Below are positions 11,325 through 16,997 of a stretch of 64,000 nt of DNA, one piece after another (position 1 is the first letter of the stretch; the number at the start of each line of letters is the position of its first letter). The notes below the pieces were generated by a model. It ran no database searches. It saw nothing but the letters and a program-made list of their open reading frames with translations, and was not told the DNA's origin. A program made the position numbers and the translations under genes. The stretch comes from Calothrix sp. CSU_2_0. GTDB lineage: Bacteria > Cyanobacteriota > Cyanobacteriia > Cyanobacteriales > Nostocaceae. The stretch spans positions 1 to 64,000 of the forward strand of contig JAAUPE010000005.1 of assembly GCA_012034595.1 (NCBI GenBank), in the 5' to 3' direction.

Positions 11325-12023
11325 TCAACTAGCTTTCGCCAAATCTGTATTACTTTCTAGCTTTCCATCTTCCAAATGGACGATTCGGTCTGCGATATCG
11401 AGAATCCGGTTATCGTGGGTAACGAGTAAGATTGTACAACCTTGTTCCTTTGCCAGGGTTTGCATAATATTCACAACATCGCGACCAGATTTACTGTCGA
11501 GTGCTGCCGTTGGTTCATCTGCCAAGACTATTTTTGGATGGCTAACCAGTGCCCGTGCGATCGCAACTCGTTGTTTTTGTCCCCCGGATAAGTCATCTGG
11601 GTAATAATTAATACGGTTTTCTAATCCCACATGTTCGAGCATGGCAGCTGCCCGTTGATTCATTTCTTTGGGTGAAATACCTTTTTGCACTTCTAAACCC
11701 ATTCGCACGTTTTGCAGTGCGGTCAAGCTTCCATGTAGGTTATGTGCTTGAAAAATATAACCATGATTCCGACGTGCTTCTGTGAGTTTTCTGGCATTTG
11801 CCCCGACTAGTTCCTGTCCCAATACGTGCAAATTACCTGACTGTGCTGAACGAAGTCCACCGACTAGGGTTAATAGGGTTGTTTTACCAGAACCGGAAGG
11901 ACCAGTCATAATGATAATTTCACCAGCATTAATATCAAGATTGATATCAATTAATACTTGCTTCCGAAGTTGTCCGTGACCGAAAAAATGGTCAAGATTT
12001 TTAACAGAAATTACAGATTCCAT
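11325..12023 (-). CDS. devA: DevA-type ABC transporter ATPase
   Basis: A 232-residue ATPase of the MacB/LolD type. Walker A is GPSGSGKTTLL near residue 41, the signature is LSGGQKQRVAIARAL near 145, and Walker B with D-loop is VLADEPTAALD. It is last in the leftward order devB, LRV gene, devC, devA, matching the DevBCA exporters that with TolC export glycolipids in heterocyst formers. Many cyanobacteria carry several DevBCA copies, and this one has a divergent TetR regulator, so its cargo need not be heterocyst glycolipid. The 178-bp gap to devC is filled with heptamer repeats. Confidence 0.88.
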   Translation of the reverse strand: MESVISVKNLDHFFGHGQLRKQVLIDINLDINAGEIIIMTGPSGSGKTTLLTLVGGLRSAQSGNLHVLGQELVGANARKLTEARRNHGYIFQAHNLHGSLTALQNVRMGLEVQKGISPKEMNQRAAAMLEHVGLENRINYYPDDLSGGQKQRVAIARALVSHPKIVLADEPTAALDSKSGRDVVNIMQTLAKEQGCTILLVTHDNRILDIADRIVHLEDGKLESNTDLAKAS

Positions 12024-12201: not shown

Positions 12202-13376
12202 TTAAAACATATCTGCTGGATCGGCTGATTGGACTTTACGAGTTGCGATCGCGCCGGAAATCATGCACATAATAACTGTCATAATCATTACTTGAATTGC
12301 CCGCGCTAAAGTCATAATTACTGGTAAATTTGTAGCATTGCGGGTCATTGTATACAATCCAAAGGAAATGGAAACCCCAGGAATAAATCCTAAAATTGCC
12401 AAAATGATTGCTTCTTCAAACACCACACTTAATAAATAAGAGTTACGAAAACCCATCGCTTTAAATGTGGCATATTCTTTCATATGAGCATTAACGTCAG
12501 TAGAGAGAACTTGGTAAACAATAATTACCCCCACCATAAAACCCATCATCACCCCAAGATTAAAAATAAACCCAATAGCAGTACTTTTCTGCCAGTAGTC
12601 TTTTTCAAAGGTGAGAAATTCTTCTTTAGTAAGAACTCGAACGTCTTTACCGAGATGGGTTTTTAAGTTTGCAACGACTTGCTGGGGGTCAGATTCTGGT
12701 TGTAACTTGACTAAACCAATGCTGACGCTACCAGCTTCCCGTCGAGGAAATAATCTTAAGAAATTTTGGTCACTAGTCATTAATGTTGCATCGGCAATGA
12801 ATGAAGCACCGACCTTAAATAAGCCACTAACATTGACAGTACGACGTTCTATTTCTGCTTTTACTGATTTACCTTGGTCAATATTTGTAATTAGTTCTAA
12901 GTAATCTCCACGTCCAGCGCGATCGAATAACACCGCATCAGGTAATTTGACTTTATTTAGCTGACTTTTCACTTCTGGTAAATCAAAAGCTGGTTTATCA
13001 GGGTTAAATCCTGCGACTAAGATGGTATTTTTTTGCCAGTTTCGGGATTTTTCCAATCGATAAAGTTAACATACATCGGTTCTGCTGATTTTACACCTGG
13101 CATATCATTTGCCTGAAATATTCTGCGTCGGGTAAATGTGGACATATTAGCCAAGTTTCGTGCTTGGGGACTAATTAGGAAAATATCTGCTTCCATGCTG
13201 CGGTGTAGTCGGGTGTTACTATCAAATAATGCAGCTTGAAACCCCAGTTGCATAAACATTAAGATGTCAGCAAATGCGATACCCGATAATGCAACCAAAA
13301 AGCGTCCTTTTTCGCGAGATAGTTGCAACCATCCTAGTGGTGTACGACGTTGTAAAGTTTGGATAAAAGCAACCAT
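12202..13376 (-). pseudogene. devC: DevC-type ABC permease, frameshifted
   Basis: Two reverse ORFs form one roughly 391-residue permease. The first (start 13376) begins MVAFIQTLQRRTPLGWLQLS with the first membrane helix and ends NPETGKKIPS. The second continues with NTILVAGFNPDKPAFD through a periplasmic domain and three more helices (IGFIFNLGVMMGFMVGVIIV and following). One added base in the T7 run at 13028-13034 restores ...ETGKKNTILVAG. The FtsX/MacB-type topology with four helices fits DevC. Because this is a one-base deficit in a 7-base homopolymer, sequencing error is likely and the gene may be functional. Upstream, TTTTGGA and TGACTCC heptamers occupy the gap to the LRV gene. Confidence 0.86.
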
Positions 13377-13517: not shown

Positions 13518-14660
13518 CTACTGACTCCTGACAAGACTTCTTTGAACATATTCACTTGCATCATCAGATAAAAGTTCCTTAATATAGTTTGAAATATTCG
13601 GATTTTTAGCAACACTACCCCGTACCAAAGGATATTTATCTCTAGCTAATTTCTCTAAAGCACGAACAGGTATATTTATATTATCAGCCGCACTTCTTCG
13701 CACAAATACAGATTCATCTTCAGCTAAATTTTCTAAAATATTTATAGGTATATTTAGATTACTCGCTACTTGCCTTCTAACAACAGATGATTTCTCTTGA
13801 ACAAGAATTTCTAAAAGTTGTAAAGGTGTATTTTCATTTCCCGCAACCTGACTTCTCACATCTTCACTATTATCCTTAGATAACCCTTCTAAAATATGAA
13901 TTGGTGTGTATAAACTACGAGCAATATCACTTCTAATACCTGCACTGCCATTTTCCGCTAAATTTTCTAAAATATGGCTGGGTGTGTTCTTATTTTCGAT
14001 CAAACTTGCCTGAATATCAACATCAATATTTTCCCCTTGAAACAAGAATTCTAAAATGTGAACTGGTGTATTGAAATTGCGAGCAAGACTACTTTTGATA
14101 TCTGTATCTTCATCTTGTGCTAACTTTTCTAATACATGAATGGGTGTATTTTTATTAGCTGCAATATTTCTACGAATACATATATCTTCATCTTGTGCTA
14201 ACTTTTCTAATACATAAATTGGTGTACAGTCATTACTGGCAACTGACGCTCGTACATTATCATTTTTGTCTTGAGATAATTTTTCTAATATCTGAGGTAC
14301 TTTTTGAAACTCACCTACAGCACTACGAATATATTCGTTTGGATGATTTGTACCCCATTCAATAAAGAAAACTGGTAGTTCATGATATGCAAACGGATTT
14401 TTTCTACCATACACCCCATATAATTCTTCAAGAAAATCAGGATTTTCCAACAATATTAAATCTAAAGCAAAATTATTGAGTACCTGAATTGGAAACTCAC
14501 TAAATAATCCTTTGAGAATTTCTGGTGATGTATTCGGATTTTCAGCCACCGCAAATCGAATCTTATCACTTTGACTTTGTGCTAATTCCTTTAAAACTTG
14601 ACTTGGAGTATTTTCATCTAAAGCTAAATTCAATTCTGAAGATTGAATAATATTACTCAT
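13518..14660 (-). CDS. LRV/HEAT-like repeat protein
   Basis: ATG 14660 (MSNIIQSSELN) follows a good AAGGG site; the ORF track uses an upstream GTG. The roughly 380-residue protein consists of about 24-residue repeats of the form NTPxxxLExLAQDExxxIRxxVAxN, the pattern of leucine-rich variant (LRV) helical repeats, degenerating in the region ENPDFLEELYGVYGRKNPFAYH. There is no enzyme motif, cysteine cluster or signal peptide, so a cytosolic binding protein is most likely. It is inserted between devB and devC in the same direction, which is unusual for a devBCA locus. Confidence 0.8.
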   Translation of the reverse strand: MSNIIQSSELNLALDENTPSQVLKELAQSQSDKIRFAVAENPNTSPEILKGLFSEFPIQVLNNFALDLILLENPDFLEELYGVYGRKNPFAYHELPVFFIEWGTNHPNEYIRSAVGEFQKVPQILEKLSQDKNDNVRASVASNDCTPIYVLEKLAQDEDICIRRNIAANKNTPIHVLEKLAQDEDTDIKSSLARNFNTPVHILEFLFQGENIDVDIQASLIENKNTPSHILENLAENGSAGIRSDIARSLYTPIHILEGLSKDNSEDVRSQVAGNENTPLQLLEILVQEKSSVVRRQVASNLNIPINILENLAEDESVFVRRSAADNINIPVRALEKLARDKYPLVRGSVAKNPNISNYIKELLSDDASEYVQRSLVRSQ

Positions 14661-14892
14661 TTTCCCTTTCACCTAATTCAAATTATCTTTTGAAAATACC
14701 AAGCAAATACCCCTCACTAAATCTTTTTGTTTCTCTATATTCTCTATATTTCTCCGTGTACCTCCGCGTCATCCTCAGCGTGACTCTGCGTTTAAAAAAT
14801 AAACTTTGAGGTAATTTGACAAACCAAGTTCATTAATTTGCTCTTGCTAGATTAAAATTTTAAGTAGAGCAAAAACCCGGTTTAAATTTTTA

Positions 14893-14935
14893 AATTTTTA
14901 AATATCAAATATCAAATATCAAATATCAAATATCA
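14893..14935 (-). repeat. Heptamer array forming the devB stop codon
   Basis: AAATATC units (TGATATT/GATATTT in the devB sense) run into the end of devB. The last codons and TGA stop (ATT-GAT-ATT-TGA) are part of the repeat phase. Confidence 0.8.
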
Positions 14936-16233
14936 ATAACTGCTTGAACTTGCAGATTTGTAAACTTCGCAGCTTGTTCGCTAGATTCATTATTCAAACG
15001 AACCCGAACCTCAACAATCCGGGAATCAATATTACTCGAAGGGTCGCTATTAATGATATTCTGACGCTGGACTTGATACCCTACCCAATCTACCGTTCCT
15101 TGTAATTCTCTAGGTAAAGAATCGCTACTAATTCGTACCTTTTGCCCTTGTTTTACCTTACTAACATCACTTTGATAAACTTCAGCGACTGCGTACATTT
15201 GACTAGTTTCACCAAAATCTATAATTCCCTCATTTCCGACAACTTCACCTGCATGAGTGTTAATTTTTAATACCCTTCCCGTTTGAGGTGCGCGGATATA
15301 TGCTAAGGCAAGTTCAGCACGAATTCTTTCCACACTTGCGATCGCACTATCGATTTCGGCTTGTGCTGTGGCAATATCGGTAGGACGGATTTCAGATGTT
15401 TGTGCTAAGGTTCCTTGCGCTTGTTTAATCTGCTGCTGCATACTCGCAACGGTTTTGTTGAGGTTTGCTTGCGCTTCGGTAATTTGTTGTTCTAAGGTGG
15501 CAATAGTACGGGTTTGAGTCGCTTGACTTTCGAGAAGTTGCTGACTTGAGGTTTCTGCACTCAGTCTTCTGCGATCGACTTCTTGGCTAGAAATTACCCC
15601 TTCTTTGTATAAGCTTTCATAGCGTTGGACATCAATTTGAGCATTCCGTCGTTCGGCTGCGATGCGTGCTACAGTGGCTTTTAATGCTTGTTTTTGTCCT
15701 TGCAACTCAGCTTCAAGTCTGGCAATAGTCGCTTGTTGCGTTTTCACATCTCCCGCTAATTCAGCTTGCAAGCGGTTGACATCAGCGCTACGTGCTACCA
15801 ATTCACCTTGTTTTGCTCCAGCTTTTACTTGTGCTAGCTGCGCTTTCGCAACTGCTACCTTTCTCTCCGCTTCCCTTAAAGATGCTTGGAGACGATCGCG
15901 ATTTTCCATTACTGCTATTATCTGACCTTTTTGGATGCGATCGCCTTCTTTGACCAAAAGTTGTTCGACACGAGTACCCTGGTTTGATGTTGGTGCAGAA
16001 ATTTTGATGACTTCACCCTTTGGTTCTAGTCTTCCTAAGGCAGTCACAGTCTTAATTTCTGGTGCGGTGATTACTGGTGCTGGCTTTGGTGGGGTGTTTG
16101 CCGTGCGGATTCGGTTAACTCCGAAAACACCAATACCTCCCAGCAATAATGCTGCCATGATTATTATTGCCAATGGTGGACGTTTATAAGGTTGAGGTGC
16201 GGGAGAATCTTTTAGTTTTGGAGTTTCCAGCAT
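14926..16233 (-). CDS. devB: DevB/HlyD-type membrane fusion protein
   Basis: A 435-residue periplasmic adaptor. One N-terminal membrane helix (LAIIIMAALLLGGIGVFGV) near residues 21-40 is followed by a lipoyl half-motif (VKEGDRIQKGQIIAVMENRD), a long coiled coil of about 170 residues rich in Gln/Ala/Glu, the second lipoyl half (AYIRAPQTGRVLKINTHAGE) and a beta-barrel. These parts are those of DevB-family adaptors linking DevCA to TolC. It is the first gene of the leftward exporter locus and is divergent from a TetR regulator 146 bp away. Operator-like palindromes lie between. Confidence 0.9.
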   Translation of the reverse strand: MLETPKLKDSPAPQPYKRPPLAIIIMAALLLGGIGVFGVNRIRTANTPPKPAPVITAPEIKTVTALGRLEPKGEVIKISAPTSNQGTRVEQLLVKEGDRIQKGQIIAVMENRDRLQASLREAERKVAVAKAQLAQVKAGAKQGELVARSADVNRLQAELAGDVKTQQATIARLEAELQGQKQALKATVARIAAERRNAQIDVQRYESLYKEGVISSQEVDRRRLSAETSSQQLLESQATQTRTIATLEQQITEAQANLNKTVASMQQQIKQAQGTLAQTSEIRPTDIATAQAEIDSAIASVERIRAELALAYIRAPQTGRVLKINTHAGEVVGNEGIIDFGETSQMYAVAEVYQSDVSKVKQGQKVRISSDSLPRELQGTVDWVGYQVQRQNIINSDPSSNIDSRIVEVRVRLNNESSEQAAKFTNLQVQAVIDI

Positions 16234-16248
16234 AACAGCACCTGTAGT

Positions 16249-16277
16249 TTGATGACTAAACTATTTAGTTTTATAAT
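16249..16277 (+). promoter_or_regulatory. Predicted sigma70-type promoter of the tetR gene
   Basis: TTGATG (16249-16254), 17-bp spacer, TATAAT (16272-16277). An operator-like palindrome occupies the 3' part of the spacer, directly against the -10 box, as expected for a self-repressing TetR gene. Confidence 0.65.
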
Positions 16278-16309
16278 ATAACTACACTAAACTAAACTGG
16301 GTAGTTTAG
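16258..16309. promoter_or_regulatory. Two operator-like inverted repeats between devB and tetR
   Basis: Palindrome 1: AAACTA-TT-TAGTTT (16258-16271). Palindrome 2: CTAAACT-GGGT-AGTTTAG (16292-16309). Both carry the same half-site AAACT/AGTTT. They are the natural candidates for binding by the adjacent TetR protein and could control both divergent units. Confidence 0.6.
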
Positions 16310-16379
16310 CTATATAAATTAGATATTCTTATACATATTTTAACTGTTACTCTAAGTAACAGCGAAGGGATAATTACCA

Positions 16380-16997
16380 ATGATAGACACAAAAGCCAGT
16401 GAACCCGAACGTGAAAGTACGGTAGAAAAAGTTGAAAAAATATTACAAGGGGCAATGCAGGAGTTTCTTGTACATGGTTATGCGGGAACAAGTATGGATC
16501 GGGTGGCATCGCAAGCTGGTGTATCAAAGGCAACTGTTTATAGTCACTTCAAAGATAAAGAAGGTTTATTTAAGGCACTTATACATCAGCTAGCAACAGA
16601 GAAATTTCAGAATACCTTTGCGACTTTGCCATTGGAAGGGGAACCTGCGGTTGTACTGCGAATAGTAATCACCAAGGCTCTAAACAAGATGATGAGTGAT
16701 ACCGAACATCAAGCGTTTGTACGGGTGTTGATTGCTGAATCAGGTAGATTTCCCGAACTAGCAAAGGCTTGGATTCAGGACATTATGACACCGACTATAG
16801 AAATTGTTGGTGAATATTTGGAGAAACACCCGGAGTTAAATATACCTGATGCGGAAGCCACAGTACGGGTGGTTATTGGTTCAATGGTGCATTTTATGAT
16901 GACTCAGGAAATGCTTTACGGTAAAGAAATTATACCGATGGAGAGCGATCGCATGGTGGATTGTTTGATGCACAATCTTTTGCAGGGGATGGATTGA
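16380..16997 (+). CDS. TetR/AcrR family transcriptional regulator
   Basis: A 205-residue repressor-type protein. The N-terminal helix-turn-helix spans about residues 18-65 (AMQEFLVHGYAGTSMDRVAS then AGVSKATVYSHFKDKEGLFK), the standard TetR DNA-binding domain. The C-terminal ligand-binding half resembles the AcrR-type TetR_C domains. The gene is divergent from the devB operon, so it probably represses the exporter genes and itself until a ligand binds. The ligand is unknown. Confidence 0.88.
   Translation: MIDTKASEPERESTVEKVEKILQGAMQEFLVHGYAGTSMDRVASQAGVSKATVYSHFKDKEGLFKALIHQLATEKFQNTFATLPLEGEPAVVLRIVITKALNKMMSDTEHQAFVRVLIAESGRFPELAKAWIQDIMTPTIEIVGEYLEKHPELNIPDAEATVRVVIGSMVHFMMTQEMLYGKEIIPMESDRMVDCLMHNLLQGMD

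Follow-up and report, generated by a model that had tools for sequence, protein, structure and literature searches.

The 146-bp spacer between the divergent genes devB (minus strand) and tetR (plus strand) of Calothrix sp. CSU_2_0 is very probably, as judged from sequence comparison, a two-operator control region through which a TetR/AcrR-family regulator would repress both its own gene and the devBCA exporter genes until released by a ligand. The spacer lies in a 64,000-nucleotide stretch of contig JAAUPE010000005.1 (assembly GCA_012034595.1), hereafter called the window. Its two candidate operators, O1 and O2, are conserved upstream of related tetR genes, co-occur with devB across the cyanobacteria, and vary together with the recognition helix of the adjacent regulator.

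The devB-tetR locus

According to the sequence and the list of open reading frames, the spacer occupies positions 16234-16379 and is flanked by the following genes.

11325..12023, minus strand: devA-family ATPase (TIGR02982, 370 bits, cut-off 296)
12202..13376, minus strand: devC-family permease in two frames (13017-13376 and 12202-13056), with TIGR01185 in both pieces
14926..16233, minus strand: devB-family membrane fusion protein, divergent from tetR (TIGR02971, 343 bits, cut-off 129)
16380..16997, plus strand: tetR, TetR/AcrR-family regulator of 205 aa with the recognition helix VSKATVY (open reading frame, Pfam)

The regulator is placed in the TetR/AcrR family by its N-terminal helix-turn-helix (HTH), which matches PF00440 with 61.7 bits against a cut-off of 24 (E 5.7e-17), while its C-terminal ligand and dimerization domain matches PF14246 (TetR_C_7, AefR-like) with 37.8 bits against a cut-off of 22 (2.1e-9). 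Among the named efflux-repressor classes (MtrR, AcrR, BetI, and the TetR class), the best NCBIfam match reached 54 bits against a cut-off of 280. The closest named relative by TetR is Calothrix sp. NIES-4101, with 86% identity.

DevB, DevC, and DevA all score above their curated cut-offs for a DevBCA-type ABC exporter, with TIGR01185 reaching 371 bits in one of the devC pieces. The two devC frames overlap and break at a run of A, leaving no intact devC in the window; the same stretch is open in a single frame in four relatives (L035, L036, L041, and L044). The split may be a true frameshift or may stem from an error in the assembly; with devC frameshifted, the pump encoded in this assembly may be non-functional. 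Additionally, a gene for a leucine-rich-variant/HEAT-repeat protein is situated between devB and devC (13518-14672). It is found at the same place in Calothrix NIES-4101 (L035) with 60% identity and is absent there in L036 and L037.

Two candidate operators in the spacer

The elements recognized in the spacer are given below.

16245..16250, no strand: extra candidate half-site TAGTTT, left of O1 (sequence, inverted-repeat scan)
16249..16254, plus strand: -35-like hexamer TTGATG of the tetR promoter (sequence, promoter scan; the match alone is at chance level)
16255..16269, no strand: candidate operator O1, ACTAAAC-T-ATTTAGT, a 7-1-7 dyad with one mismatch, filling the spacer between the tetR -35 and -10 hexamers (sequence, relatives)
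16272..16277, plus strand: -10 hexamer TATAAT of the tetR promoter (sequence; many relatives also have TATAAT in this position to the right of O1)
16286..16292, no strand: extra candidate half-site ACTAAAC, 5 bp left of the O2 half-site (sequence, alignments)
16291..16310, no strand: candidate operator O2, ACTAAACTGGGTAGTTTAGC, a 20-bp site (sequence, relatives)

A preliminary description of the window had proposed a promoter TTGATG-N17-TATAAT with one palindrome inside its spacer and a second just downstream. The promoter is present letter for letter at 16249-16277, with N17 at 16255-16271, and both palindromes were recovered, AAACTA-TT-TAGTTT at 16258-16271 and CTAAACT-GGGT-AGTTTAG at 16292-16309. 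The proposed shared half-site was likewise found, although the shared part is larger than described, as AAACT-N4-AGTTT is common to both palindromes in register; aligned in this way, they appear as one element, ACTAAACTATTTAGTTTTAT and ACTAAACTGGGTAGTTTAGC. Judged against relatives, the first palindrome is best read as the 7-1-7 dyad ACTAAAC-N-GTTTAGT and the second as the 20-bp site ACTAAAC-NGANT-AGTTTAGT. Moreover, alignments reveal that the overlap of the extra ACTAAAC with the O2 half-site (CTAAACTAAAC) is seen again in many relatives.

When the spacer was dinucleotide-shuffled, 0.02% of the shuffles contained a pair of separate 5-4-5 palindromes sharing one arm. Of 1278 overlapping slices cut from the window, 4 contained such a pair, a count that includes the slices of the operator site itself. 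One 7-bp inverted repeat, present in 20% of spacer shuffles, is nothing unusual, and neither is the promoter match taken by itself, with 1 found and 0.8 expected. It is conservation, rather than the window alone, that carries the case.

The 7.4-Mb genome has one copy of the perfect O2 18-mer. A genome-wide search for further CTAAACT-N4-AGTTTAG sites, which the preliminary description had suggested, found it nowhere else; with 2 mismatches allowed, the pattern matched at 53 places, fewer than the 105 of the reversed control, and these near matches were therefore dismissed as background. Since the perfect 18-mer is unique and near matches are at or below background, the putative regulon looks purely local, consisting of the tetR and devB transcription units alone. 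One match with 1 mismatch on C205 (L002) was also rejected, being located upstream of an unrelated gene and without the conserved central G.

Conservation upstream of related tetR genes

Matches to ACTAAACT-N4-AGTTTAGT were sought upstream of related tetR genes, in 99 distinct regions and in 1980 shuffles as control. A site resembling O2 with at most 3 mismatches was present in 95 of the 99 regions, 79 of them having 0-1 mismatch; the shuffles gave 0/1980 at 0-1 mismatch and 11/1980 at 2-3. A second site is usual in these regions. From 92 aligned loci, the consensus of O1 is ACTAAAC-N-G-T-n-n-A-G-T and that of O2 is ACTAAAC-N-G-A-n-T-AGTTTAGT-CAA, the arms of both being 92-100% invariant. The four exceptions comprise a locus with merely 61 bp of upstream sequence (L057), a broken gene with an O1-type site farther upstream (L009), a locus with no devB in view (L114), and Nostoc carneum (L092), in which the operator pair, kept 30 bp from devB, is separated from tetR by a transposase-like gene. 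The distance between the two sites is 36 bp here versus 28-32 bp in most relatives (31 bp in L036), and it varies mostly over 24-48 bp across relatives, which argues against a looped or cooperative complex of fixed spacing.

Promoter geometry

In most relatives, O2 fills the spacer between the -35 and -10 hexamers of the divergent devB promoter, and two arrangements recur beside it on the devB strand, TTGACT-18-TAGCAT at 42 loci and TTGACT-16-TATAAT at 21. On the devB side 33% of loci, and on the tetR side 28%, had a promoter score no lower than 9, versus 1.3% of random-placement controls. In the window, the -35 on the devB side is poor (TTTATA at best). Because of this weak hexamer and the extra DNA between the sites, it is by homology with relatives that we infer the embedding of O2 in the devB promoter of Calothrix sp. 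CSU_2_0. Two operators lying over both promoters, as in Tn10, are thus found for O1 and the tetR promoter in this genome, and for O2 and the devB promoter by way of the relatives. The self-repression architecture of the preliminary description holds as far as it goes and is too narrow: because O2 is embedded in the opposite-strand devB promoter of most relatives, it is strongly supported that the candidate operator pair controls both directions.

Linkage to devB across the cyanobacteria

A wider set was assembled from more distant TetRs of many families, with TetR identity down to 36%, and searched for the pattern ACTA-x-AC-N-GT-y-TAGT with at most one mismatch. When devB is divergent from tetR, 152 of 155 genes have the site (shuffles 0/2240), compared with 38 of 69 when no devB is in view; in all three exceptions among the 155, the helix motif has Thr (SK-T-T) and the sites are altered. 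Furthermore, when 292 genomes of the phylum were scanned for the exact pattern, it turned up at 23 distinct places, of which 17 adjoin devB and 14 of these also adjoin this tetR, and the reversed control pattern gave 1 match in the same scan.

At three loci (L115, L117, and L118), the site stands at devB and no tetR lies less than 1.5 kb away in either direction. In G199 (L117) and G300 (L118), the same contig encodes a homologue of this TetR 2-4 kb off; in G177 (L115), one is found 52 kb away. The homologues in G199 and G300 (L166 and L167) have no such site before their own genes, which suggests that devB may there be controlled in trans without autorepression.

A few sites stand elsewhere than at devB (L122 and L132-L136). 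Operator-like ACTAAAC(C/G)GTTTAGTTTAGT sites outside the devB context (L122, L133, L135, and L132) come from two genomes of one genus: the first has them in tandem repeats of 190 bp, between genes resembling dnaK and murF, and the second has one copy.

Covariation of the recognition helix and the half-site

The half-site has one varying base, 3 bp from the dyad centre, which tracks residue x of the helix motif SK-x-T-(V/I/L)-Y. Ala or Pro at x goes with ACTAAAC (base A), Gln with ACTAGAC (base G; 27/28), Asn or Ile with ACTATAC (base T; 7/7), and His with ACTGCAC or ACTACAC (base C; 2/2). Of the 190 proteins that have a site, 184 fit this scheme; agreement is 72/73 for exact dyads and 38/40 outside Ala/Pro, two of these being Thr with A. 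In a tree built from the part of the protein after the HTH, Gln appears in three separate places with G each time, whereas Asn/Ile and His form one group each. The pattern is consistent, but the covariation goes back to only about five independent changes, and so small a number leaves an independent-pairs test short of significance. It ties these TetRs to these candidate sites. A one-residue code, by which x in SK-x-T would set the base 3 bp from the centre with both arms changing together in the DevB-linked clade, is a reasonably likely reading. If true, a species with two such repressors could avoid cross-talk between the switches.

Proteins with SK-T-T (L184, L194, L204, L222, L238, and L266) have mostly altered sites, several with ATT ending one arm, and may represent a fifth specificity class.

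Proposed mechanism and alternative explanations

The suggestion that the palindromes are an operator pair for the adjacent TetR and a regulated exporter is borne out by footprinting over relatives, co-occurrence with a divergent devB, phylum-wide hits, and helix covariation. We infer binding, repression, ligand induction, and the ligand's identity as follows. A TetR dimer would sit on O1, in the spacer of the tetR promoter, and on O2, in the spacer of the devB promoter in most relatives. With both sites occupied, RNA polymerase would be kept off both promoters, and tetR and the devBCA exporter genes would be repressed. A small molecule, probably an export substrate or a toxic compound, would engage the C-terminal domain of TetR and release the repressor, whereupon pump and repressor would be produced together.

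The sites might instead belong to another regulator of devB, such as NtcA, a Fur-type protein, or another TetR, with tetR as a mere neighbour. This is very unlikely, even though it would accommodate the loci with a site at devB and no nearby tetR and the few sites away from devB: the NtcA motif GTA-N8-TAC is absent from the spacer, the site goes with this TetR clade across the class, and the variable base follows the recognition-helix residue. Moreover, a homologue of this TetR is present at a distance in the three genomes noted above. The inverted repeats could also be read as RNA hairpins of an attenuator or terminator in the leader rather than as DNA operators, given that O2 would fall in the 5' leader of a tetR transcript predicted to start just after 16277. 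Such an origin is highly improbable, since the O1 consensus dyad has a 1-nt centre over which a full hairpin cannot close, the arms are near-invariant in close relatives with no compensatory drift, and the changes in distant relatives track the protein helix; no terminator-like site was found. Chance palindromes have almost no probability left: the spacer is 73% AT and single inverted repeats come easily in such DNA, but conservation at 95 of 99 related and 152 of 155 devB-linked loci refutes chance. Control by the adjacent TetR through O1 and O2 is the preferred reading.

Comparison with known systems

The tetR and tetA genes of Tn10 are arranged divergently. In that system, two operators (tetO1 and tetO2) provide for autorepression and repression of the pump (PMC11686294). 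The Calothrix locus is similar in placing repressor and exporter genes under two candidate operators, and the 7-1-7 consensus dyad of O1 resembles the tetO spacing according to our own reading of the printed tetO2 sequence (PMC11686294). It differs in the TetR subfamily (AefR-like C-terminal domain), in the operator sequence, and in having an ABC exporter in place of the MFS pump of Tn10. The proposed circuit is of a textbook type, like that of Tn10 tetR/tetA.

The matches of this TetR among solved structures include NalC, AefR, and MtrR, with distant similarity and bit scores far below the NCBIfam equivalog cut-offs. Repressors of the AefR/NalC/MtrR type regulate efflux and related genes. Two other cyanobacterial regulators of the TetR family are described, in the portion of PMC4092027 considered here, from Synechocystis PCC 6803: PfsR (sll1392), which binds its own promoter within 99 bp of the start, and the autorepressor PrqR (slr0895); this portion gives no operator sequence for either.

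The exporter shares its DevB, DevC, and DevA families with the DevBCA-HgdD exporters of Anabaena PCC 7120, whose DevBCA paralogues Alr4280/1/2 and Alr3647/8/9 reportedly play a part in drug resistance (PMC8277102). The heterocyst devBCA is controlled by NtcA (PMC6161253), whereas the Calothrix locus lacks the NtcA motif and has a TetR and candidate operators of its own.

Novelty and potential uses

An earlier description of this operator or of its link to DevB was not found in the open-access literature, and as subscription papers lay mostly outside the search, this absence is no proof. The analysis provides a widely conserved candidate operator sequence for an apparently undescribed cyanobacterial TetR group and ties that group to DevB-type exporters, few of whose substrates are known. 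A derepressed tetR mutant or an inducible promoter could serve as a handle for finding these substrates. Additionally, a TetR recognition code could be tested on the covariation between helix and base, which forms a ready-made data set, and cyanobacterial genetics could gain orthogonal repressor/operator pairs from it.

A third inverted repeat, CTGTTAC-TCTAA-GTAACAG, lies in the tetR leader at 16344-16362. Its counterpart in L035 reads CTATTAC...GTGATAG, with one paired change that faintly suggests a possible RNA hairpin near the start codon.
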